NCBI RefSeq assembly: GCF_900176005.1
Contig: NZ_LT838272.1
Coordinates: 2,189,587-2,253,586, forward strand
Origin: Thermanaeromonas toyohensis ToBE
GTDB lineage: Bacteria > Bacillota > DSM-521 > Neomoorellales > Neomoorellaceae
Length of the DNA: 64,000 nucleotides
Direction of reading: 5' to 3'
Shown here: positions 8,792 to 48,522 of the stretch, piece after piece
Layout of the letters: every line of letters starts with the position of its first letter
How positions within the stretch are numbered: position 1 is the first letter of the stretch
Translations under genes and position numbers: made by a program
The notes under the pieces: model-generated
Databases searched by the model: none
Seen by the model: only the letters and a program-made list of their open reading frames with translations
What the model was told of the DNA's origin: nothing

Positions 8792-10393
8792 CTACTTCCA
8801 TTTGGCCTTGAGTACGGAGTTAAAGAAGCCATAAAGAGCGTCCCCAGCAATAAAACCGGCAGCTAGAATGGTCATAGGAGTTTCCGCATCCTTGCCTACT
8901 AGCTTAAGGACCAAAATGCGAATGATGATGCCAGCCAGGACAGCGTAACCTGCTAGGGGATTAAGAATTAGAAGACCTGTGGCTAGCATTATACCCAACT
9001 GCCTTTCGGAACCCCCCAAGGCTTGTATCAAAGCTCCGGGGATGGCCCATAATACTAGGTTTTTTACGATAGTAGCATCAACCCCTGCCTTAATGGTGGC
9101 CACATAAACCCGGTCCACAGGCGGGAACAGATCCTGGCGGAAATAAACATCGTGGAAGAAAGTAACCATTATCCAGGCTACGGCTAGCCCCACGAGACCG
9201 GCCAGAATTTGTTGCCAGCGCCCTTCCAGCTCAAATTGACGGTTGCGTCCCCCGCCCCTTAAGATCCAGCCTGCCTTTAGGTCGTAACCTGCGTCAGCAA
9301 AAGCCGGGCCACCAGAGGCGACAAATCCTACCAGAAGGGCCAGGGCAGGCGCCGGGAACCCGAAAGCAATGCCTAAGACAAGGAAGATAAGGGCTGTGGC
9401 AAAAGCAGGAAACCACCCAGCATGCATAGCCGAAAGTCCAACAATAAATTCGGCCAAGATACAGGAAACTGCACCAAAAACTGCCCAAAACAGAAGTTGC
9501 CAGGCCGGCATTTCCGCATATAGGCCACCCACCATGGCTAAAATAAGGGCCGCAGCTATATAAAGGCCAAAACCGCGAAGTAAGCCCCTAGTAACTTCCT
9601 TTTCGTCTCTTGTGTAATCGCTAGAGGAAAGAGCGTCAGCAGATTCCGAGGCACCCTTTCTCCCTTTAAGGAGTATAGCGATTATCTGAATACCAGCCAC
9701 CAAGCCGGCACCGATCATCATTCCATGCGGAATGTAAAGCTTATTAATATCCAGACCAAAAAGAACCTTAGAATAACCCCTAAGTAGTAGGCCTACTCCA
9801 AACATGGCCAGGGCCCAAACATTGCCGATAAAAGCTACGCCAAGGGCAGACATGGAAACCTTAAAATATGACCCAATAATACCGATGATAGTACCCAATA
9901 CCAGAAATTTGGCCCTTTTACCACCTTCATCGCCAGCATAGATGGCTTCGGCTGCAGCCACCCCCGGTGGCCAGGCTGCTTTTCCTGGAAAAACGCGGGA
10001 ATCGAAGAACCAGTAAAGCATAGCCAGGTCAATAAGCATACCCATAGTCGCGCCGATAAGCATAGGAATAACTAAGTCCGGCCGACCTAAAAGGTAGGGA
10101 ATACCGATAGGGAGAAGCAAAGAATTTGCCGCCCCAAAGGTAGCGCTAGAAATATTCGACTGGACGAGGTTCTGGCGGTGAATGGAACGATATTTAGCAA
10201 ACCACTGCCCGGGAATGCGAGAAAGAGCAATAGCCACCAGTACACCGATAATGGAGGTGTTGGGAGTTACCCCAAGGGTTGTAAGTATCTGCAGCCCAAT
10301 GATAGCTCCAATGATAGAAAGAATAATATTAACAATAAGGACCGCAGGTTCGAAGGCTTTGGGATGTGCTTCTTCTAGAAAATTTTTATCCAT
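8792..10393 (-). CDS. OPT-like oligopeptide transporter family membrane protein
   Basis: A 533-residue polytopic membrane protein of the OPT/YSL-like superfamily. About 13-14 hydrophobic segments are visible, including AVLIVNIILSIIGAIIGL near the N-terminus and conserved-looking intramembrane turns such as IPGQWFAKY and GMMIGAGLVAG. I chose the ATG at 10393 because AGGAGGA lies eight bases upstream; the longer ORF has no such site. OPT proteins import peptides or metal chelates. As the only transporter in the cluster it probably brings in the substrate that the neighbouring enzymes break down. Confidence 0.78.
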   Translation of the reverse strand: MDKNFLEEAHPKAFEPAVLIVNIILSIIGAIIGLQILTTLGVTPNTSIIGVLVAIALSRIPGQWFAKYRSIHRQNLVQSNISSATFGAANSLLLPIGIPYLLGRPDLVIPMLIGATMGMLIDLAMLYWFFDSRVFPGKAAWPPGVAAAEAIYAGDEGGKRAKFLVLGTIIGIIGSYFKVSMSALGVAFIGNVWALAMFGVGLLLRGYSKVLFGLDINKLYIPHGMMIGAGLVAGIQIIAILLKGRKGASESADALSSSDYTRDEKEVTRGLLRGFGLYIAAALILAMVGGLYAEMPAWQLLFWAVFGAVSCILAEFIVGLSAMHAGWFPAFATALIFLVLGIAFGFPAPALALLVGFVASGGPAFADAGYDLKAGWILRGGGRNRQFELEGRWQQILAGLVGLAVAWIMVTFFHDVYFRQDLFPPVDRVYVATIKAGVDATIVKNLVLWAIPGALIQALGGSERQLGIMLATGLLILNPLAGYAVLAGIIIRILVLKLVGKDAETPMTILAAGFIAGDALYGFFNSVLKAKWK

Positions 10394-15485: not shown

Positions 15486-16985
<1,500 letters not shown>

Positions 16986-33577: not shown

Positions 33578-34245
33578 TAACAATTCTTCCTAATTGTTTT
33601 CAGAATATGCTCCGTTACCTCTTCCGGCGTAAGGTTACTTGTGTCTATAATAACGGCATCTGGGGCTGGCCGTAAAGGAGCCACAATCCTCTGGCTGTCT
33701 CGCCGGTCCCGCTCTTCGATCTCCCGTTTTATTTCTTCTAAAGAAAACTTATTCCCCTGGGCTATCAATTCCTGCCAACGCCTTCTAGCCCGCTCCTCCA
33801 GGGAAGCGGTGAGGAAAAACTTATGGTTTGCTTCCGGAAGAACATGAGTACCGATATCCCGGCCATCCATAACTACTTTTCTTCTTGCCGCCAGATCCCG
33901 CTGTAACTTTACCATTTCCTCCCGCACCCTGGGCCAGGCTGCTACTGTAGAGACATGTCGGGATACCTCGGGAGACCTAATAAGACGGGTTACATCCTCC
34001 CCATCACAGTAAACAGATACTTCTCCTGGAGCAACTTCTTTAAATTCCAAGGAAGTGTTTCGAGCAAGATCTACTAGGGCAGCCTCGTCAGTAACCTTTG
34101 TTCCCTCCTTTAGAGCTTTCCAGGTAAGGGCGCGATACATAGCCCCTGTGTCAATATACAAATAGCCCAGCCGCTTAGCTAGTTGCCGGGCTACTGTGCT
34201 CTTTCCAGCCCCCGCCGGTCCATCTATAGCTATGTTATCCCTCAC
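33577..34245 (-). CDS. cmk: Cytidylate kinase
   Basis: Phosphorylates CMP/dCMP. The product of 222 residues starts at GTG 34245 (RDNIAIDGPAGAGKSTVARQ), overlapping the aroA stop as GTGA, with GGAGG ten bases upstream; a longer frame adds unrelated residues. P-loop GPAGAGKST, YIDTGAMYRALT and the VMDGRDIGTHVLPEA block are present. The aroA-cmk-plsC-ispH/rpsA order is common in Clostridia. Confidence 0.95.
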   Translation of the reverse strand: MRDNIAIDGPAGAGKSTVARQLAKRLGYLYIDTGAMYRALTWKALKEGTKVTDEAALVDLARNTSLEFKEVAPGEVSVYCDGEDVTRLIRSPEVSRHVSTVAAWPRVREEMVKLQRDLAARRKVVMDGRDIGTHVLPEANHKFFLTASLEERARRRWQELIAQGNKFSLEEIKREIEERDRRDSQRIVAPLRPAPDAVIIDTSNLTPEEVTEHILKTIRKNC

Positions 34246-35525
34246 TTGGTTAATGCCTCCAGGTCGGCCAGGAAACCGGGATAAGAGATACTCATGCACT
34301 CGGCTCCGCGGATAACCGTTTCCCCTTCGGCAATCAAACCGGCTACCGCCAGAGCCATGGCCAGGCGGTGATCACCGTGGCTATCTACCACTGCCCCCTT
34401 TAAGCTCCCGCCCTCCAACACCATGCCATCGGGCAAGGTTTCGATTTTAGCTCCCATCTTACGAAGTTCCACAGCTAAGGTGGTTATCCGGTCGCTCTCT
34501 TTAACTTTAAGTTCTGCTGCATCTCTAATTACAGTAGAACCCTGGGCTACAGCTGCTGCCACGGCCAGCACCGGTATTTCATCGATAAGGCGAGGGATTA
34601 ATGCGCCACCGATCTTAGTACCTTTAAGGGAACTACTGCGCGCCCTTACCACCCCGTAGGGCTCTCCAGCGCTAACCCCCTCCTGGATAACCTCTAGTTC
34701 AGCCCCCATCTCTTGCAGGACGGTGAGTAAACCGGTTCGGGTGGGATTAAGCCCCACATTGCGAACCACTACTTCGGCTCGCGGATGAATACAAGCAGCA
34801 ACTAAAAAGAAAGCGGCGGCGGAAAAATCACCGGGAATGCAAATCTTAAAGGGCTGTATCCTTTGGCGGCCGTAAATGGTTATCTCCAGATCTTCCTTTT
34901 TTATTTTTACTCCGCAATATTCCAACATTCGCTCTGTATGATCCCGCGCTGGAACAGGTTCCCGTACCACTGTTTCTCCCTCGGTGTGAAGGCCAGCTAA
35001 GAGGAGGGCCGATTTTACTTGAGCGCTGGCTACAGGAAGATTATACTCTATAGGACGGAGATTACCTCCTTTAATACTTAAGGGGGCTAGGTTCCCTCCT
35101 TCGCGGCCCCAAATATGGGCCCCCATCTGCCTTAAAGGTTCGGCTACCCGGGCCATAGGGCGGCGACGTAAAGAATGATCACCTGTTATTACCGAATAGA
35201 AGGGTTGGGCCGCAAGCACCCCCAAAAGAAACCGCATAGTAGTTCCTGAATTCCCGGCATCCAGGACATCCTCAGGCTCTTTTAAACCTTCCGGCCCCTG
35301 AGCGCGGATTTTAAGCTTGCCTTCCCGGGGACCTTCTATTTCTACCCCTAAAGCCTGTAAACAACGCAGGGTACTGAGGCAATCACCTGCTTCCAAAAAA
35401 TTGCTGATTTCTGATGTGCCATCGGCCAAGGCAGCAAAAATAGCAGCCCGGTGCGAAATGGATTTATCCCCCGGGGGGGAAAATTCTCCTCGTAAAAACG
35501 GCGTCCGCTTGATAGTCAGATCCAA
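34242..35525 (-). CDS. aroA: 3-phosphoshikimate 1-carboxyvinyltransferase (EPSP synthase)
   Basis: Sixth step of the shikimate pathway. The 427-residue protein has PPGDKSISHRAAIFAALA near the N-terminus, DAGNSGTTMRFLLG (phosphoenolpyruvate-binding loop) and KVKESDRITTLAVELRKMGA. Normal length. It belongs functionally with aroF-pheA-tyrA upstream, from which an ISL3 insertion now separates it. Confidence 0.96.
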   Translation of the reverse strand: MDLTIKRTPFLRGEFSPPGDKSISHRAAIFAALADGTSEISNFLEAGDCLSTLRCLQALGVEIEGPREGKLKIRAQGPEGLKEPEDVLDAGNSGTTMRFLLGVLAAQPFYSVITGDHSLRRRPMARVAEPLRQMGAHIWGREGGNLAPLSIKGGNLRPIEYNLPVASAQVKSALLLAGLHTEGETVVREPVPARDHTERMLEYCGVKIKKEDLEITIYGRQRIQPFKICIPGDFSAAAFFLVAACIHPRAEVVVRNVGLNPTRTGLLTVLQEMGAELEVIQEGVSAGEPYGVVRARSSSLKGTKIGGALIPRLIDEIPVLAVAAAVAQGSTVIRDAAELKVKESDRITTLAVELRKMGAKIETLPDGMVLEGGSLKGAVVDSHGDHRLAMALAVAGLIAEGETVIRGAECMSISYPGFLADLEALTK

Positions 35526-35584: not shown

Positions 35585-36977
35585 GGCTCTATGTCAATAG
35601 TTGTGGGATCAGATTTTGGGGGCAACATCCTAGGAAGATTTTTTTGATGAAATGAATGCGATTTCTGAAGCCGAAACTTAAGCGTTTAAGCATTTTGCTT
35701 AAGGTATTTTTACCTTCTATATAGCCATTAGTGTACCGGCGACCTTGCTGGGTATATCTTACCAGGTTTAATATTTCTGACCTCCAAGACTTGATAGTAC
35801 GGGCCCATATCCGTCCCTCTGCATTTTCAGCGCATTCTGCATTTATAAACCAACGGCTCAAAGCAGCTTTTGCCTCTTCTACCCGGTCCATCCTTAGAAT
35901 TTGCCTTAAGTCTTCCTTTAGCTGGTATAATTCATAGAGGGACGGGTATTTATCTTTAATTTTTTCTAATGCCTCTTGCTGTCTGGGAGTAAGTCTCTCT
36001 TTAGCTTTAATCAAAGGAAACCGGGGTATCTTCTCTTTGCTCGCTTCTTGCTCTATCCTTCTTGCCTCATCTAAACGACGGTTAGCATCCTGGATCACAT
36101 GAAAAGGGTCTACTATTATCTTGGCTGAAGGAAATATTGCTTTGATTAACTTACGCCAAGAGTCTTTCATGTCAATTACTACCGCCTCTACTTTGACCCC
36201 AGCTTTCTTGAGCTCTTCTAGGTAAGCCTTTATAGTTGCCGTCCTCACATCCTCTAAAATAGTCAAAGGCCTCTTGTCCGGTTCCAACCTCCCTACCATG
36301 CATACAAAATCGTTCCCAGTAAAGGATAGCTCATCTAAGGTTAACACTATAGGTTCTTGAGTATCATCAAAAGGAAGATTAGGCTGGACATACTTGTCCA
36401 CTAATCTTATAACCCTAGTGGGGGTAAGGTTTAACATTTGAGCCGCATAAGTAAAGCTCATCCTCTGGGCATAATAAACTACTGTCTGCACCCCTAATTT
36501 TGTAAATCTGGCCCAGGGGTTGGTACCCGGAGGACGAAGGGTATAAGTCTTACCACAACGGTAACACTTATACCGTACGGGAACCCAGGACAGAATAACC
36601 CATCTCCCATATAAGAAAGCATGATGAATTCTTCTTTCTTTTGGCTTCTGGTTTTCCTTTAAGAAGCCATGCCTGTGTAATTTGCCTTCGTTGCATACAG
36701 GACATACCTCTGGAGGGTCTACGGTTACCTTTAACACAATATCTCCTGGGTCTTGGGGTTCTTCTAAAATGGGCTGTAGTATTTTCTCAAAATTCTCTTG
36801 CTCTTCGAGGGTGAACGTGTTAATCTTGTGCATGGGGGCACTCCTTTCTTGAAGGGGTTTGTGTTTGCTAACATTCAATTTGGATGTGCCCCCGTCCTTT
36901 TCCTCCTACAACCAAAATCTACCTTCCCACTCGCTTAATCCCATCTACCCCTATCCCACACTTTTTATTATAGAGCC
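35585..36977 (-). mobile_element. ISL3-family insertion sequence
   Basis: A 1,393-base element bounded by imperfect inverted repeats. The left end begins GGCTCTATGTCAATAG and the right end, read inward, begins GGCTCTATAATAAAAAG; both then share TGTGGGAT and further on AGATTTTGG. It is flanked by direct repeats GGTGGAGAC. It contains one full transposase on the minus strand. The perfect flanking repeats suggest recent insertion. Confidence 0.93.
35589..36833 (-). CDS. ISL3 family transposase
   Basis: A 414-residue transposase starting at ATG 36833 with AAAGGAG upstream. It has an N-terminal zinc ribbon (CPVCNEGKLHRHGF, then YKCYRCGKTYTLRPPG), helix-turn-helix-like residues and the DDE domain (LTLDELSFTGNDFVCMVG, VEAVVIDMKDSWRKLI, KIIVDPFHVIQDANRRLDEA, ending FGFRNRIHFIKKIFLG). 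No frameshift. The stop lies inside the left terminal repeat region. Confidence 0.95.
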   Translation of the reverse strand: MHKINTFTLEEQENFEKILQPILEEPQDPGDIVLKVTVDPPEVCPVCNEGKLHRHGFLKENQKPKERRIHHAFLYGRWVILSWVPVRYKCYRCGKTYTLRPPGTNPWARFTKLGVQTVVYYAQRMSFTYAAQMLNLTPTRVIRLVDKYVQPNLPFDDTQEPIVLTLDELSFTGNDFVCMVGRLEPDKRPLTILEDVRTATIKAYLEELKKAGVKVEAVVIDMKDSWRKLIKAIFPSAKIIVDPFHVIQDANRRLDEARRIEQEASKEKIPRFPLIKAKERLTPRQQEALEKIKDKYPSLYELYQLKEDLRQILRMDRVEEAKAALSRWFINAECAENAEGRIWARTIKSWRSEILNLVRYTQQGRRYTNGYIEGKNTLSKMLKRLSFGFRNRIHFIKKIFLGCCPQNLIPQLLT

Positions 36978-36999: not shown

Positions 37000-38100
37000 C
37001 TATTCTCGCCAGCGGGCAGTAATGCCATGACGGCGCAAAACCTGGAGAGCCTGTTCGGCTGCGGAAGAACTCGTGAAGCCCAGGCGTATACTTCCACCCT
37101 CCCCTTCCCGGACGCGTAAAATTTCGATATCGCTTATATTAATCCCTTCCTGACCTAAAATTTGGCCCACGAAGCCGATAACTCCCGGCCGGTCAGGTAC
37201 GGTAATAACTATTTCGTGGAGAGTAGGGAGCAAGCCTTTCTGGCGGGCCGGGATTTGGTTTCGCCAGCTCCGGGCATATTCTAAGGCCTCCAGCAACCCT
37301 TGGCCATCGTGCTCTCTAATTAGGGTTGCTAACCGCCTAATTTCCTGCTCCCAAGCCTCTAGGATATTTAAAAGAACCTGGGCGTTGCTTAAATATATAT
37401 CCCGCCACATTATAGGGTGGCCGGAAGCGATGCGGGTGGTATCGCGAAAACCACCGGCTGCTAGCATCAAAAGCTCCCGGTGTTCTAAAGAATACCTGGC
37501 TACCATATGCATAAGGGATACGGCTAGGAAATGGGGGAGGTGGCTTACCACCCCTACCACCCAATCATGCTTTTCAGGAGGGAGGCATATTACCCGGGCC
37601 CCCAAGGCCGTAAGTATGGTTTTAAGGCGGCTTAGGGCCTCTTCCGAAGTTCTTGTAGTGGGGGTGAGGATATAAACGGCATTTTCTAGAAGATAACGAT
37701 CAGCAGCGCTGATACCCGCCCGCTCCGAACCTGTCATGGGATGGCCGCCAATATAAGTAATAGAAGAGGGGAAAATCGTTTCTAACTCATGTACTACTTT
37801 AGCCTTAGTACTACCCGTGTCAGTAACAATAGCCTGGGGGGAAAGATAAGGAGCTATCTCCCGGGCCACAGAAGGAAGCACCCCTACTGGTACAGCCAAA
37901 ATAACCAGTTCCGCCCCCTGTACAGCTTCTTGTGAGCTGGTGGCCAAGTGGTTGATGGCGCCCATCTCTAATGCCTTTTCCAGAGCTTTTCTTTCGCGGT
38001 CGTAACCCGCCACTTCCTGGGCTATTTTGCCTTGTAGGAGGGCCATACCCAAGGAACCACCTATTAAGCCCAGGCCTATGATAGCTGCCCTCTTAATCAT
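37000..38100 (-). CDS. tyrA: Prephenate dehydrogenase with ACT domain
   Basis: Oxidises prephenate to 4-hydroxyphenylpyruvate for tyrosine. The product is 366 residues, starting at ATG 38100 (IKRAAIIGLGLIGGSLGMAL) right after GGGGGGAAGG. The NAD-binding GLGLIGGSLG, VTDTGSTKAKVV and YIGGHPMTGSERAG blocks are diagnostic. The C-terminal ACT domain (VPDRPGVIGFVGQILG, about 295-360) suggests tyrosine feedback. It overlaps pheA by eight bases. Confidence 0.94.
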   Translation of the reverse strand: MIKRAAIIGLGLIGGSLGMALLQGKIAQEVAGYDRERKALEKALEMGAINHLATSSQEAVQGAELVILAVPVGVLPSVAREIAPYLSPQAIVTDTGSTKAKVVHELETIFPSSITYIGGHPMTGSERAGISAADRYLLENAVYILTPTTRTSEEALSRLKTILTALGARVICLPPEKHDWVVGVVSHLPHFLAVSLMHMVARYSLEHRELLMLAAGGFRDTTRIASGHPIMWRDIYLSNAQVLLNILEAWEQEIRRLATLIREHDGQGLLEALEYARSWRNQIPARQKGLLPTLHEIVITVPDRPGVIGFVGQILGQEGINISDIEILRVREGEGGSIRLGFTSSSAAEQALQVLRRHGITARWRE

Positions 38101-38956
38101 CTTCCTTCCCCCCTTCCCTGTAGCAAGGATAAGAACCAAGTACCCTTAAAAAACTGGTGCGGGGACGCAAGGCGGCCAGCACCCCAGCTAATGGCTCACG
38201 CTCTGCATGGCCTTCGCAATCTAAGAAAAAAAGATACTCGCCCAGTTCCTTTTTGGTAGGGCGAGATTCAATACGGGTAAGATTTATCCCTGCCTCAGCG
38301 AAGTCCCGCAGGATGTTGTAGAGGCCGCCGGGCCGATTCTCTGGCAGGGCCAAGACCAGGGAGGTTTTATAAGGTCCTCGGCCAGGTACCCTTTCCCGGC
38401 TTACAATTACAAAACGCGTTTTGTTGCCCGGATAATCTTCAATCCCTTGGTATAGCACCGGAAGTCCATAAAGCCGAGCTGCAAAGGAGGAACCTATAGC
38501 TGCACTTCCCTTTCGGGAGGTCGCCAAAACGAAGGCCCCCGCTGTGCTGGTGGCGGGACAGAGGCGTGCCTTAGGTAAACGGCTGGCTAAGAACCTGCGG
38601 CACTGGGCCAGGGCGTGGGGATGGGACCACACTTCGGTAATGTTTTGAGGATCCGTTTCTTTAGAGGCCAGGCAGTGGCGAACTTCCAATACTACCTCAC
38701 CAACAATTTGTAAAGCAGGTTCTTCCAGAAGTAAATCCTGTGTTAGGTTGACGCTACCTTCGATAGAATTCTCTAAAGGTAGGATAGCGGCCTGGCACCG
38801 GCCTTCCAGCACTGCTTGAACCACTTCTAGAAGGTTTTCAACAGGAAAGAAAGAGGCCACCCCTATCGCAGAACCCCATATTACAGCAGCTTCATGGGAA
38901 AAGGTCCCTTCTGGGCCTAAGTAAGCTACCTGATCTATCTTACAACTAGAGTTCAC
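38093..38956 (-). CDS. pheA: Prephenate dehydratase
   Basis: Makes phenylpyruvate for phenylalanine. The 287-residue protein has the periplasmic-binding-like catalytic fold (AYLGPEGTFSHEAA, LPLENSIEGSVN, NKTRFVIVSRE with the Thr-Arg-Phe motif) and a C-terminal ACT domain with the ESRPTKKELGEYLFFLD effector-binding region. It starts at a GTG overlapping the aroF stop (GTGA). Confidence 0.95.
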   Translation of the reverse strand: MNSSCKIDQVAYLGPEGTFSHEAAVIWGSAIGVASFFPVENLLEVVQAVLEGRCQAAILPLENSIEGSVNLTQDLLLEEPALQIVGEVVLEVRHCLASKETDPQNITEVWSHPHALAQCRRFLASRLPKARLCPATSTAGAFVLATSRKGSAAIGSSFAARLYGLPVLYQGIEDYPGNKTRFVIVSRERVPGRGPYKTSLVLALPENRPGGLYNILRDFAEAGINLTRIESRPTKKELGEYLFFLDCEGHAEREPLAGVLAALRPRTSFLRVLGSYPCYREGGKEDD

Positions 38957-39981
38957 GCTGGGATCCGCCCTAGGCTCCGTCCCAGGACTTTAGCTATCCC
39001 TACCACTTCCTTAACTAAAGAAAAGAACTCTTCCGGCCGCAGGCTCTGGGGCCCATCCGAGAGGGCATTTTCCGGTTTAGGATGTACTTCAATCAAAAGG
39101 CCATCTGCGCCGGCAGCTATGGCAGCCCGGGCCAGGGGAATTACTAACTCCTTTTTGCCGGTACCATGGCTGGGATCGGCAAGGACCGGGAGATGGGAAA
39201 GCTGTTTTACAGCAACCAGGGCGCTAAGATCGAGGGTGTTACGGGTATATGTCTCAAAAGTGCGGATACCCCGTTCGCAAAGGATAACCTTGAAATTCCC
39301 TTCGGCCAGGATATATTCCGCTGCCAGTAGCCATTCTTCAATGGTAGCTGAGAGCCCCCTTTTTAAAAGCACAGGCTTCCCCAGACAGGCTATAGTCTTA
39401 AGCAGGGCAAAGTTTTGCATATTACGGGAACCGATCTGGAGAACATCCGCCACTTGGGCTACAGCCTCGGCTTTAGTCTGGTCGGTAACTTCTGTAACAA
39501 TAGCTAGCCCTGTCTCTTCTCGTGCCTCAGCCAAAAGCTTAAGCCCGCGCTCAGCTAAACCTTGGAAAGAATAAGGCGAAGTACGCGGCTTAAAAGCACC
39601 GCCACGTAACATGGTAGCACCAGCCTCGCGCACGGCATGGGCTGTCTCCAGAAGTTGCTCCCGACTTTCTACAGCGCAGGGCCCGGCGATAATGTGTATC
39701 TCTGGCCCACCTACTTTAAACTTGCCTACTTCTACTATAGTATTTTCTGGCTTAAATTCTCGCGCAGCCAGCTTGTAGGGCTTAAGTATGGGGATCACTT
39801 TTTCTACCCCCGGCATGGCTTCCAAGGCTTGATGCTCTAAGCGTGTCTTATCTCCTATGGCTCCAATTACCGTGCGGAGGGTTCCCCGCGATAGGTGAAC
39901 CTTAAACCCCTCCTTCTCTAGCCTGGCCACTACCCCTTGAATCTCCTTTTCTTCAGCACCAGCTTGCATAACCACAATCAT
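38953..39981 (-). CDS. aroF: 3-deoxy-7-phosphoheptulonate synthase (type I beta)
   Basis: First enzyme of the shikimate pathway. In 342 residues there is an N-terminal ferredoxin-like regulatory domain (MIVVMQAGAEEKEIQGVVAR to about 70) and a TIM-barrel with IIAGPCAVESREQLLETA, GGAFKPRTSPYSFQG and ADPSHGTGKKELVIPLARAA. The ATG at 39981 has GGGGGG eight bases upstream. The leader in front contains a terminator and triplet repeats that suggest attenuation. Confidence 0.95.
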   Translation of the reverse strand: MIVVMQAGAEEKEIQGVVARLEKEGFKVHLSRGTLRTVIGAIGDKTRLEHQALEAMPGVEKVIPILKPYKLAAREFKPENTIVEVGKFKVGGPEIHIIAGPCAVESREQLLETAHAVREAGATMLRGGAFKPRTSPYSFQGLAERGLKLLAEAREETGLAIVTEVTDQTKAEAVAQVADVLQIGSRNMQNFALLKTIACLGKPVLLKRGLSATIEEWLLAAEYILAEGNFKVILCERGIRTFETYTRNTLDLSALVAVKQLSHLPVLADPSHGTGKKELVIPLARAAIAAGADGLLIEVHPKPENALSDGPQSLRPEEFFSLVKEVVGIAKVLGRSLGRIPA

Positions 39982-40005
39982 ATATAGCCCCCCTAAATGC
40001 AAAAG

Positions 40006-40030
40006 AAAAAACCACCCCGCCAGGAGTGGT
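40006..40030 (-). terminator. Intrinsic terminator in the aroF leader
   Basis: Transcript-strand ACCACTCC (40023-40030) pairs with GGGGTGGT (40011-40018) around a TGGC loop, followed by a U run. It ends about 25 bases before aroF and 220 bases after trpA. CAGGAG at 40055-40060 could pair with CTCCTG in its 5' half, giving an alternative antiterminator. Confidence 0.8.
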
Positions 40031-40196
40031 GCCTTCTTTTTTGGCTTTTCCTACCTCCTGCCGTCCTACCATCCTACCTTAAGCTAATTAAGAATATAGA
40101 GCTAAACATTAACTACTGCTAATACACGTAATACACGCTTAAAATTAATCCTACCTGCTCCTACCATGCTACTATTTTTTATTAAGCTCACTCTAA
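40031..40196 (-). promoter_or_regulatory. aroF leader with NAG-triplet arrays (candidate attenuator)
   Basis: Between the promoter and the terminator the transcript has two clusters of NAG triplets. The proximal one reads UAG-N5-UAG-N5-CAG-N4-UAG (TAG at 40074-40076 and 40066-40068, CAG 40058-40060, TAG 40051-40053). The distal one includes TAGs at 40072-40074 plus 100 (that is 40172-40174), 40169-40171, 40161-40163 and 40151-40153. The proximal cluster overlaps the possible antiterminator strand, so a protein bound there would favour termination. Confidence 0.5.
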
Positions 40197-40226
40197 ACTA
40201 TAGCATAAGGTATTTCTTCCTGGCAA
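40197..40226 (-). promoter_or_regulatory. Candidate promoter for aroF-pheA-tyrA-aroA
   Basis: TTGCCA (40221-40226), 18 bases, TATAGT (40197-40202) on the minus strand, in the gap after trpA. It makes the aroF operon separately transcribed and gives a leader of about 205 bases. Confidence 0.65.
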
Positions 40227-45344: not shown

Positions 45345-46857
45345 CTTTATTCTCTCCTTTAAGCCTGGCAGTTTCCTTGTTCTCAAGGGCTTTGAGCAGG
45401 GCCCGGGCCTTGTTTAAGGTTTCCTGGTATTCGGCTTCAGGTACCGAATCAGCTACGATCCCTGCTCCGGTTTGAACAAAGGCTTTGCCCCCTGTAAAGA
45501 TGATGGTACGGATGGCGATACAAGTATCCAGGTTCCCGTTCAACCCCAAGTAGCCTACGGCACCGGCATAAGGTCCCCTTAAGGTGGGTTCTAGCTCTGC
45601 AATTATCTCCATAGCCCTTACCTTGGGAGCCCCTGATACAGTCCCCGCCGGGAAACAGGCTAGGAAAGCATCTAAAGCTGTCTTCCCAGGAGCAAGCCGC
45701 CCGGTAACGCTAGATACCAGATGCATCACGTGGGAATAATACTCTACTGTCATAAATTGGGGAACTTGTACGCTTCCCGGAACTGCTACCCTACCAATAT
45801 CGTTGCGCCCTAGATCAAGGAGCATCAGATGCTCGGCGCGTTCCTTTTCATTAGCTTGGAGTTCCTGAGCTAATTTTTGATCTTCTAAAAGATCCCTTCC
45901 CCGCCGCCGGGTCCCAGCTATAGGACGAGTTTCTACTAATCCATCTTCCACTCTGACCAGCATTTCAGGAGAAGAACCCACGAGCTTAACCTCCGGAAAA
46001 TGGAGGTAAAACATGTACGGGGAGGGATTGATGGATCGTAAACGACGGTACACCCCAAAAGGGTTACCCTGGAAAGGAAGCTCTAATCGTTGAGAAAGCA
46101 CTACCTGGATGCAGTCACCAGCGGCAATATAGTCTTTAATTTTCCCTACCTTGGTCATAAACTCCTGGGGAGTCATATTAGAAATAAGGTTACTTTGCCT
46201 ACTCCAGCGATAGGTAACTTCTTCCTCAAGATGAAGTTTGGGAGGAGCGTTTAAGAAGCGCAAAATTTTATTTAAGCGCTCTTGAGCTATGCTTCTATCC
46301 TTGGGATCGTCATGCCGAGCCAAGCAAACCACCTTTACGGTGCGCTGGACATGGTCATAAATAAGAAGAACGCGGTTTAACACCAAATATGCTTCGGGGA
46401 GTTGAAGATCATTTTTACCTGTTATTGGAATTCTCTCCAGATAGCGAACAAAGTCATAACTGAAATAACCTACCAGTCCTCCGAAAAAGCGCGGTAAATC
46501 AGACGGATAATGGGAGATTTGTAGCTCCTGCAACAATTCCTTTAAAGTTCCTAAGGGATCAGTAAAGGTCTCCTCCTTGCCCTCTTGCCAGATTGTACAG
46601 GTAAACCCGCGGCATCGGAAAACTAAAAGGGGATCCAAACCTATGAAGGAGTAGCGGCCTAACTTTTCTCCTCCTTCTACACTTTCCAGGAGATAGCTGT
46701 AAGGGGCGACACCCAGCTTAAGGTATAAAGAAACAGGGGTTTCGGTATCCGCTAGGACTTCCTCCCAGAGCGGGATAATATACCGCCACCCCCGAAGACC
46801 AAAAAAGCCAGCGCTCGAATGAGCACCGGCTTGCTGCCCGTACCTAGCCTGGCTCAT
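45325..46857 (-). CDS. trpE: Anthranilate synthase component I
   Basis: Makes anthranilate from chorismate. The 510-residue protein has an N-terminal domain with the tryptophan-feedback region ([19 protein letters not shown], that is an LLES-type motif) and the chorismate-binding C-terminal domain ([66 protein letters not shown]). First gene of trpEGDCFBA. Its ribosome-binding site and start codon sit inside a dense (G/U)AG array. Confidence 0.96.
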
Positions 46858-46897
46858 CTCCAGCTCCCCTCTCCTCTACTTAAGCTCGTCTCAGCTA
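46853..46897 (-). promoter_or_regulatory. (G/U)AG triplet array over the trpE ribosome-binding site
   Basis: Reading the transcript, TAG or GAG triplets occur at 46895-97, 46890-92, 46885-87, 46876-78, 46871-73, 46864-66, 46858-60 and 46853-55, with an AAG at 46879-81. Most spacings are two to four bases. The last GAG overlaps the AUG start. This resembles TRAP-binding sites that block translation of trpG and trpP in B. subtilis. Confidence 0.6.
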
Positions 46898-46957
46898 AGC
46901 TTAATATGGTTTTCCCTTAATAGCTTGCCCCTCTAAAGGAAGCCATTTCTTGCCTTT

Positions 46958-47007: not shown

Positions 47008-47367
47008 TTACTCTAGATCGGGCCTTAAGAGGGCCGCCCGGCCCAAATACACATGTTGAGGTGGAGTTTTACAATAGGCATGGATTAACACTCTGACTAT
47101 ACCTGGGAGACTTCCCGGTACCGGTATCTCTGTAGCACATAGTAAAGCTACTTCCTTCCAACCTAGCCGCCGGGCGGCTTCTGCAGGAAAGGCAGCGTTT
47201 AAATCAGGAGTCACGGTGAAAAAGGCACTTATTATATCGCTTTCTTCTAACTGATTAATCTTCATTATTTCCTGCAAAAGCTGCCCCGTACTACGAAGTA
47301 TTTCCCCAGCCTCATTTTTTTCTACTGAAATAGCACCCCTAATACCTCTAACCCTTAGTTCCTCCAT
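47008..47367 (-). CDS. aroH: Chorismate mutase, AroH type
   Basis: Converts chorismate to prephenate. The 119-residue monofunctional AroH-class protein (trimeric in B. subtilis) has VRGIRGAISVEKNEAGEI, FFTVTPDLNAAFPAEAARRL and LCATEIPVPGSLPGIVRVLI. It lies between the HutP-like gene and trpE, completing the route to Phe and Tyr with pheA and tyrA downstream. Its 5' leader carries UAG-N5-UAG-N6-GAG (47373-47392). Confidence 0.95.
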   Translation of the reverse strand: MEELRVRGIRGAISVEKNEAGEILRSTGQLLQEIMKINQLEESDIISAFFTVTPDLNAAFPAEAARRLGWKEVALLCATEIPVPGSLPGIVRVLIHAYCKTPPQHVYLGRAALLRPDLE

Positions 47368-47372
47368 AGTAA

Positions 47373-47392
47373 CTCACCTTCCTACCGTACTA
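47373..47392 (-). promoter_or_regulatory. NAG-triplet motif in the aroH leader
   Basis: GGTAGTACGGTAGGAAGGTGAG on the transcript has TAG at 47390-47392 and 47382-47384 and GAG at 47373-47375, just before the aroH ATG. It shares the form GGTAGNAYGGTAGGA with two places in the aroF leader. Confidence 0.45.
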
Positions 47393-47447: not shown

Positions 47448-47861
47448 TCAGGAAACCGCACGGTGCCCTAAGCCAATGCCTACTTCATCCAAGTGTAAAA
47501 GCCCAATACCGAGGAAGACAGCTACGCTAATATGGTCTTGGTAACGGGCAATACCTATTTTCCCTCCCACGTTAAGGCCTAAAGCCTTAGGCATGAGCTG
47601 GGACAAGGCTTCCCGGGTAGCACCGGCTACCGCCCCTTCCTCCGCATGTACCTCGCGGATAACGCCTTCCCTCTTGGCCGCCACCACAGCCCGCTCCACT
47701 ATCTTTTGAACAGAGCTGATAAATTCACCACCGCAATCTACTGCCGCCGCACGTATACCCTTGGCGGCAAACTCTGTTTTTAGCCTGTGCTCTTCTTCCC
47801 TGCTTTCCGAGAGGGCCATGCGTATGGCTACAGCCGCTACCTGCCTGCTTCCATACCCCAT
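47448..47861 (-). CDS. HutP family RNA-binding regulator (divergent)
   Basis: A 137-residue HutP-like protein. The core EEGAVAGATREAL aligns with ESHALYHATMEAL of B. subtilis HutP, and the end GIGLGHRAV aligns with GVGINHI. HutP binds NAG repeats in hut mRNA when loaded with histidine and Mg2+, using His73, His77 and His138. Here positions 73 and 77 are Gly while the C-terminal His is kept, so histidine sensing is unlikely. Genes downstream are aroH and trpEGDCFBA, suggesting control of aromatic synthesis. The family call is good; the role is inference. Confidence 0.8.
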   Translation of the reverse strand: MGYGSRQVAAVAIRMALSESREEEHRLKTEFAAKGIRAAAVDCGGEFISSVQKIVERAVVAAKREGVIREVHAEEGAVAGATREALSQLMPKALGLNVGGKIGIARYQDHISVAVFLGIGLLHLDEVGIGLGHRAVS

Positions 47862-47985: not shown

Positions 47986-48036
47986 ATGGATAGGTTGGAT
48001 TTGAACAGAGCACCCTGCACGTGGGGAGGGGAAGCC

Positions 48037-48522
48037 TTGGAAGAGATTCTTAAACAAATTTTAAACGAGCTGCAGATGCTTAATGGGCGAGTCGAAAGCC
48101 TAGAACAGGGGCAGAAAAGTATAGCCTCCCGGCTCACGGTCTTAGAACAGGGACAGGAAACTATCACCTCCCAGCTCACAGCTGTACAACAAGATCAAGA
48201 GGCTATGACCTCCAGGCTTGTAGCCTTAGAACAGGGACAAGAAACTATGACCTCCAGGCTCACAGCTTTAGAACAGGGACAAGAAACTATGACCTCTAGG
48301 CTTGTAGCCTTAGAACAGGGACAAGAAACTATTGCCTCCAGGCTCACGAGTTTAGAACAAGGTATCCATAAATTAGAAAAAGTAGTAGCTAATGTTAAAA
48401 AAGATACTAAAAAAATCAGGACCGAACTGCATTTTGTCTGGGAAGACATTAAAAAGCTTGATGATCGCTTAACCACCCAAGAAGGAGAAATCGTCCTATT
48501 AAAACGGTTAAATAGGGCTTGA
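48037..48522 (+). CDS. Coiled-coil protein with 14-residue tandem repeats
   Basis: A 161-residue protein from TTG 48037 (EEILKQILNELQMLNGRVES), seven bases after GGAGG. Six copies of a 14-residue unit like LEQGQETMTSRLTA form a continuous two-heptad coiled coil, followed by LEKVVANVKKDTKKIRTELH and another short coil. No signal peptide or membrane segment. Probably a cytoplasmic, oligomeric rod; function unknown. It is one of the few plus-strand genes and is divergent from the HutP-like gene. Confidence 0.8.
   Translation: MEEILKQILNELQMLNGRVESLEQGQKSIASRLTVLEQGQETITSQLTAVQQDQEAMTSRLVALEQGQETMTSRLTALEQGQETMTSRLVALEQGQETIASRLTSLEQGIHKLEKVVANVKKDTKKIRTELHFVWEDIKKLDDRLTTQEGEIVLLKRLNRA
48100..48351 (+). 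repeat. Six 42-base tandem repeats within the coiled-coil gene
   Basis: The 14-residue units are also similar at DNA level (recurring TTAGAACAGGGACAAGAAAC, each followed by a variable CTCC-GGCT part). Copies three to six are the closest, pointing to recent expansion by unequal exchange or slippage. Confidence 0.85.

Follow-up and report, generated by a model that had tools for sequence, protein, structure and literature searches.

A putative transcription attenuator ahead of aroF in Thermanaeromonas, probably read by a HutP-family protein, and its counterparts in related anaerobes

Results

The window analysed here is a stretch of 64,000 nucleotides of Thermanaeromonas toyohensis ToBE (contig NZ_LT838272.1, positions 2,189,587 to 2,253,586). 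On its minus strand lie, in order, a hutP-like gene (47448..47861), aroH (47008..47367; chorismate mutase type I, PF07736), trpEGDCFBA, a 247-nt gap, aroF, pheA, tyrA, an ISL3-family transposase gene, aroA and cmk. The HutP-like protein is 93% identical to a Thermanaeromonas HutP (family Moorellaceae). aroF (38953..39981), the first gene to be regulated, encodes a type I DAHP synthase with a ferredoxin-like domain (PF00793, PF18152); its start was corrected to the ATG at 39981 from the sequence and from 342-aa orthologs, the TTG at 40002 given in the ORF list falling in the terminator region described below. pheA (38093..38956; prephenate dehydratase with an ACT domain) and tyrA (37000..38139; prephenate dehydrogenase) were identified by Pfam search, and aroA (34242..35525) from its ORF and translation, the name resting on recognition and conserved gene order. 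The ISL3 gene (35589-36878, minus strand; Pfam) sits between tyrA and aroA and possibly separates aroA and cmk from the aroF promoter. Among relatives, aroH directly follows hutP in 32 of 43, often with trp or aroF-tyrA-aroA also downstream; at five loci, from Peptococcaceae of the gut and one relative, cmk takes the place of aroH behind hutP. Elsewhere in the window a 178-aa coiled-coil ORF with imperfect repeats (LTALEQGQETMTSR) runs on the plus strand opposite the hutP operon (47986-48522), between hutP and ilvC, and a SAM riboswitch (RF00162, 92 bits) lies at 16852-16982 on the minus strand.

The original prediction placed a promoter, NAG clusters, an antiterminator formed by CAGGAG and CTCCTG and an intrinsic terminator in the leader of aroF, and all of these were recovered on the minus strand. 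The promoter (40197..40226) consists of TTGCCA (40226-40221), an 18-nt spacer and TATAGT (40202-40197) preceded by TG, and is conserved as CTTGCCA ... TGYTATAKT in an alignment of 11 Moorellaceae leaders. There are two NAG clusters: site I (TAGTAGCATGGTAGGAGCAGGTAGG, 40150..40174), close to the transcript start, and the main cluster, site II (40051..40076), which reads TAG-GATGG-TAG-GACGG-CAG-GAGG-TAG and matches the pattern YAGNAYGGYAGNAYGGYAGGRG. The 5' strand of the antiterminator, CGGCAGGAG (40055..40063), covers the third triplet of site II, in keeping with the claim that the last cluster overlaps this strand; it can pair with CTCCTGGCG (40018..40026), which is common to the 5' arm and the loop of the terminator. 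The terminator itself (ACCACTCCTGGCGGGGTGGT-TTTTTTCTTTT with a U-tract, 40001..40030) is supported by sequence and fold, although the 25 bases said to separate it from aroF become about 30 nt because the gene starts at ATG 39981 and not at TTG 40002. Both alternative structures, for which fold prediction had been suggested as a check, were predicted: the antiterminator at -17.6 kcal/mol in an RNA truncated before the 3' arm of the terminator, and the terminator folded alone at -12.0. The blocks conserved among the 11 Moorellaceae leaders are the promoter, site I just past the transcript start, then site II, CAGGAG and also the terminator CACTCCTGGC; the stretches that separate these blocks vary.

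No match to a T-box (RF00230) or riboswitch was found in the aroF leader, and no Rfam family scored above cut-off against the aroF motif, which is a linear purine-rich repeat rather than a conserved aptamer fold. Five T-boxes occur elsewhere in the genome, none of them at the aroF locus. Inspection of the leader for an aromatic-rich leader peptide yielded only a 21-codon ORF with a single Phe and no evident ribosome-binding site; its ATG coincides with a position of the motif at which the sites have T or C. The absence of a T-box and of an aromatic-rich leader peptide had been noted at the outset and stands.

Reading the aroF leaders of relatives gave the pattern YAGNAYGGYAGNAYGGYAGGRG, a tandem motif YAG-NAYGG-YAG-NAYGG-YAG-GRG with an 8-nt period and 5-nt spacers, in which the first base of each triplet is U or C and hardly ever G. 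Within the genome the exact motif is confined to site II (reversed control 0), and with up to one mismatch the 22-nt pattern still occurs there once; it is present in 17 of 18 genomes of the family, in single copy except for one genome with two, while the reversed pattern has no match at this threshold in any of the 18. Of 398 genomes sampled from the phylum, 45 contain the exact motif, at a single site each (reversed control 0); allowing up to one mismatch raises this to 95, compared with 6 for the reversed control. The tandem motif thus occurs in the family far beyond chance. The counts in the source genomes are partly circular, since the pattern was first recognized by eye in some of them; its uniqueness, the controls and the new target genes are not affected by this. 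An upstream two-triplet site accompanies 31 of 95 motif sites, against 0.2 expected, with a median gap of 27 nt between the clusters. A shorter pattern, YAGNAYGGYAGGRG, had four exact matches in the genome outside the leader, all of them coding or without a suitable leader, and for this reason no further members of the regulon are claimed there. Eight one-mismatch matches that were coding or unlinked, and chance-like, were left out of later site statistics.

An intrinsic terminator lies within about 150 nt of the motif at 82 sites, a median of 16 nt downstream. The 3' end of the motif pairs more strongly with its own terminator, at the 5' arm and loop, than with permuted partners (-9.7 versus -8.2, sd 0.2; none of 5000 permutations reached the own pairing), and the own pairing beats shuffled sequence at 73 of the 82. 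The effect persists in 15 dissimilar sites (P = 0.011); with relatives removed, we regard these statistics as moderate support. At three sites ending in TAGTGG the terminator has CCCA, a compensatory change.

Allowing one mismatch, 105 distinct sites were collected, about eight of which are chance matches. The first downstream gene is aroF at 44 and a PF04392 ABC binding protein gene at 26, followed by aroH (six, with two more judged by eye), sodium symporters (five), DctP binding proteins (four), AMP-ligases (three), tyrA and hutP itself (two each), and pheA, aroE and an aminotransferase gene (one each). trpE is never the first target among the 105, from which we infer a preference for Tyr or Phe as ligand. 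A search with one of the PF04392 proteins (L096) matched just three structures, 6hni, 3lkv and 3lft, for which bound Tyr, Phe and Trp are reported (PMC6816091); a related protein, TrpX, serves in Trp uptake and is controlled by a T-box (PMC9382623). One locus (L190, genome G348) carries two copies of the motif about 3 kb apart, each ahead of a DctP-type binding protein gene; these genes could possibly encode TRAP-transporters of aromatic compounds.

In the window, a second regulatory site, TAG-TACGG-TAG-GAAGGTGAG (47373..47392, minus strand), lies over the ribosome-binding region of aroH, and the motif is similarly placed directly before aroH at four other loci. Sites at aroH and at some ligase genes have no terminator, and their location at the ribosome-binding region suggests that these genes are repressed in translation. 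The motif also occurs before a hutP-like gene, as for autoregulation, at two loci (L197:821-842, at 91 nt, and L221:1012-1033, at 34 nt). In two Heliobacterium loci (L072 and L074, around 9975-10001) a GAG repeat version, TAGgacggGAGgacgGAGcatggGAG, overlaps the start of hutP; autoregulation with a shifted code is possible in this genus.

The product of the hutP-like gene, the proposed RNA-binding regulator, matches Pfam HutP (PF09021) over its full length (positions 1-128 of 128; E = 1.7e-50, 171 bits against a cut-off of 25), and its gene is the only PF09021 gene in the genome. Direct similarity to Bacillus subtilis HutP, the sequence of which was verified letter for letter against 1vea, is weak (BLASTP 26% identity, E 9e-4; hhalign probability 1.5). 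A PDB profile search with the clade alignment retrieved no HutP chain, NCBIfam and PHROGs hold no model for the protein, and an AF2 model built from the clade alignment (mean pLDDT 55) was unusable, so that no fold search was run on it. Because pairwise similarity is weak and the structure model failed, family membership rests on the Pfam profile. In all 24 aligned orthologs Gly replaces H73 and H77, the HxxxH residues of the histidine/metal site of B. subtilis HutP, where they are metal ligands; this clade has its own invariant His and Glu, while distant PF09021 paralogs, including ones from the Moorella family, keep HxxxH. hutH (PF00221) was detected in a B. subtilis control and in none of the 18 family genomes. 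The loss of HxxxH and the absence of hutH make histidine an unlikely ligand, as far as sequence can tell. Three PF09021-like domains without HxxxH are fused behind CBS domains and adjoin ispD/ispF-like genes, two of the three also a glutamyl-tRNA synthetase-like gene; these fusions make up a third branch of the HutP family, as yet unexplained.

An ortholog of the HutP-like protein is present in 233 of the 398 genomes, those with only distant paralogs excluded. It occurs in 44 of the 45 genomes with an exact motif and in 189 of the 353 others (Fisher P = 2e-10, uncorrected for relatedness); the single exception is 92% complete and in 160 contigs. Conversely, 145 genomes with an ortholog have no motif at up to one mismatch, which implies either drift of the code or further targets of the protein.

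Discussion

We consider it probable that the aroF leader acts as a transcription attenuator and that its reader is the HutP-family protein encoded at 47448-47861, a proposal in which binding, ligand and polarity are inferred. The elements, their conservation and uniqueness, the regulon, the co-occurrence with the protein and the alternative pairings were computed; there are no binding, expression or ligand data. The comparison thus supports the original prediction that protein-dependent attenuation fits best, with the dependence on a protein itself inferred. It adds to that prediction the 8-nt YAG-NAYGG code, the extent of the regulon, the TRAP system at trpE, the site at aroH and the loss of the histidine/metal site. 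In the model, transcription would begin immediately downstream of the -10 element (40202-40197). Under scarcity of aromatic amino acids, most likely tyrosine and/or phenylalanine, CGGCAGGAG would pair with the terminator's 5' arm and loop, so that no terminator forms and aroF-pheA-tyrA is expressed. When the amino acid is plentiful, a ligand-bound oligomer of the HutP-like protein, helped by site I, would hold the three YAG triplets and mask the antiterminator strand; the terminator could then form and transcription would stop. At aroH this protein probably acts on translation, blocking it through the site that covers the ribosome-binding region of the gene.

The terminator might be no more than the plain end of the trp operon, without any regulation, and it does stand between trpA and aroF here. 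The original prediction would have fallen had this been so. However, motif and terminator both lie downstream of a conserved promoter, and the arrangement is kept at seven loci where aroF has no upstream trpA, as well as ahead of unrelated transport genes, which leaves this explanation scarcely credible. It is also very unlikely that the same protein and RNA act with the opposite polarity, binding preventing termination and the effector acting as an anti-activator. B. subtilis HutP does antiterminate (PMC7430163), but at the aroF leader the bound third triplet is itself the antiterminator strand, so that protein on the triplets should cause termination, and biosynthetic targets call for repression by the end-product.

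A more general doubt concerns the identity of the reader. TRAP (MtrB) reads (G/U)AG repeats and drives such an attenuator (PMC7430163), and its gene is present here (C1:2733837-2734037), as it is in 17 of 18 genomes of the family, among them every near-complete one; it might therefore be TRAP that binds the aroF triplets at high tryptophan, as in the B. subtilis trp leader. Yet of 33 motif genomes outside the family 17 have no TRAP, while the HutP-like protein accompanies 44 of 45 exact-motif genomes overall, and the core of three triplets with 5-nt spacers and a Y first base is not an array of about 11 (G/U)AG with 2-3-nt spacers; the longest run of triplets at that spacing in the aroF leader is three. 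A separate TRAP-type array of nine (G/U)AG, TAG..GAG..GAG..TAG..GAG..GAG..GAG..GAG..TAG (46844-46898, minus strand; spacers of 2-6 allowed), covers the trpE start together with its ribosome-binding region. We thus give little credence to TRAP as the reader at aroF; its absence from many motif genomes and the distinct array at trpE make it seem that TRAP and HutP-like systems work side by side. In relatives, clear GAG arrays with 2-3-nt spacers stand before trpE and are followed by a terminator-like hairpin. Another possibility is that the motif is read by some other RNA-binding protein, so far unidentified, or by an RNA fold that binds a ligand, and that the hutP-like gene is a mere operon neighbour. 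With no binding data and with many HutP genomes lacking the strict motif this cannot be dismissed, but it appears improbable given the co-occurrence and adjacency of HutP, the presence of hutP itself among the targets, the known association of its family with NAG triplets, and a motif that is a linear purine-rich repeat outside any Rfam family above cut-off.

Reading by the HutP-like protein, which we prefer, has parallels in known systems. B. subtilis HutP, a hexamer whose RNA binding depends on its ligand, has 4-nt spacers between its triplets, whereas those at aroF are of 5 nt with a conserved NAYGG. The two proteins share the Pfam family PF09021, three NAG triplets in each main cluster and often a second cluster; they differ in that the window clade lacks HxxxH and its family genomes lack hutH, that its targets are biosynthetic and that its geometry predicts termination rather than antitermination. 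For B. subtilis HutP, clusters of three NAG repeats are bound, two of them about 20 nt apart in hut RNA (PMC7430163). As in the Bacillus trp attenuator, a protein would mask an AG-triplet antiterminator in favour of a terminator, and a site over a ribosome-binding region exists as well, although the protein is unrelated to TRAP, which here coexists and is assigned to trpE. The Firmicutes Trp T-box regulon (trpXYZ; PMC9382623) likewise combines aromatic biosynthesis and TrpX-type transporter targets with transcription attenuation, but the aroF locus has no T-box element. The open-access literature contained no link between HutP and chorismate mutase and no 'HutP-like' protein, and one survey of attenuation does not mention such a system; subscription journals were outside the scope, and an earlier description is not excluded. 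This would apparently be an undescribed mode of control of aromatic amino acid synthesis and uptake in many anaerobes.

We propose, with somewhat less assurance than for the aroF leader itself, that this branch of the HutP family likely senses an aromatic amino acid and is a master regulator, by attenuation and translation, of aromatic biosynthesis and transport in much of the phylum, using its own YAG-NAYGG code beside the different AG code of TRAP in the same gene cluster. HutP has been known for antitermination, in response to histidine, of a single catabolic operon. This widespread branch seems to govern a pathway of the opposite type, and to do so with a reversed outcome and another RNA code. 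Such regulation would account for the control of aroF in bacteria such as Moorella and Desulfotomaculum relatives and would assign a role to many genes annotated 'HutP' where hut genes are lacking. TRAP and HutP would also provide a natural pair of AG-triplet codes, within one gene cluster, for studies of specificity.
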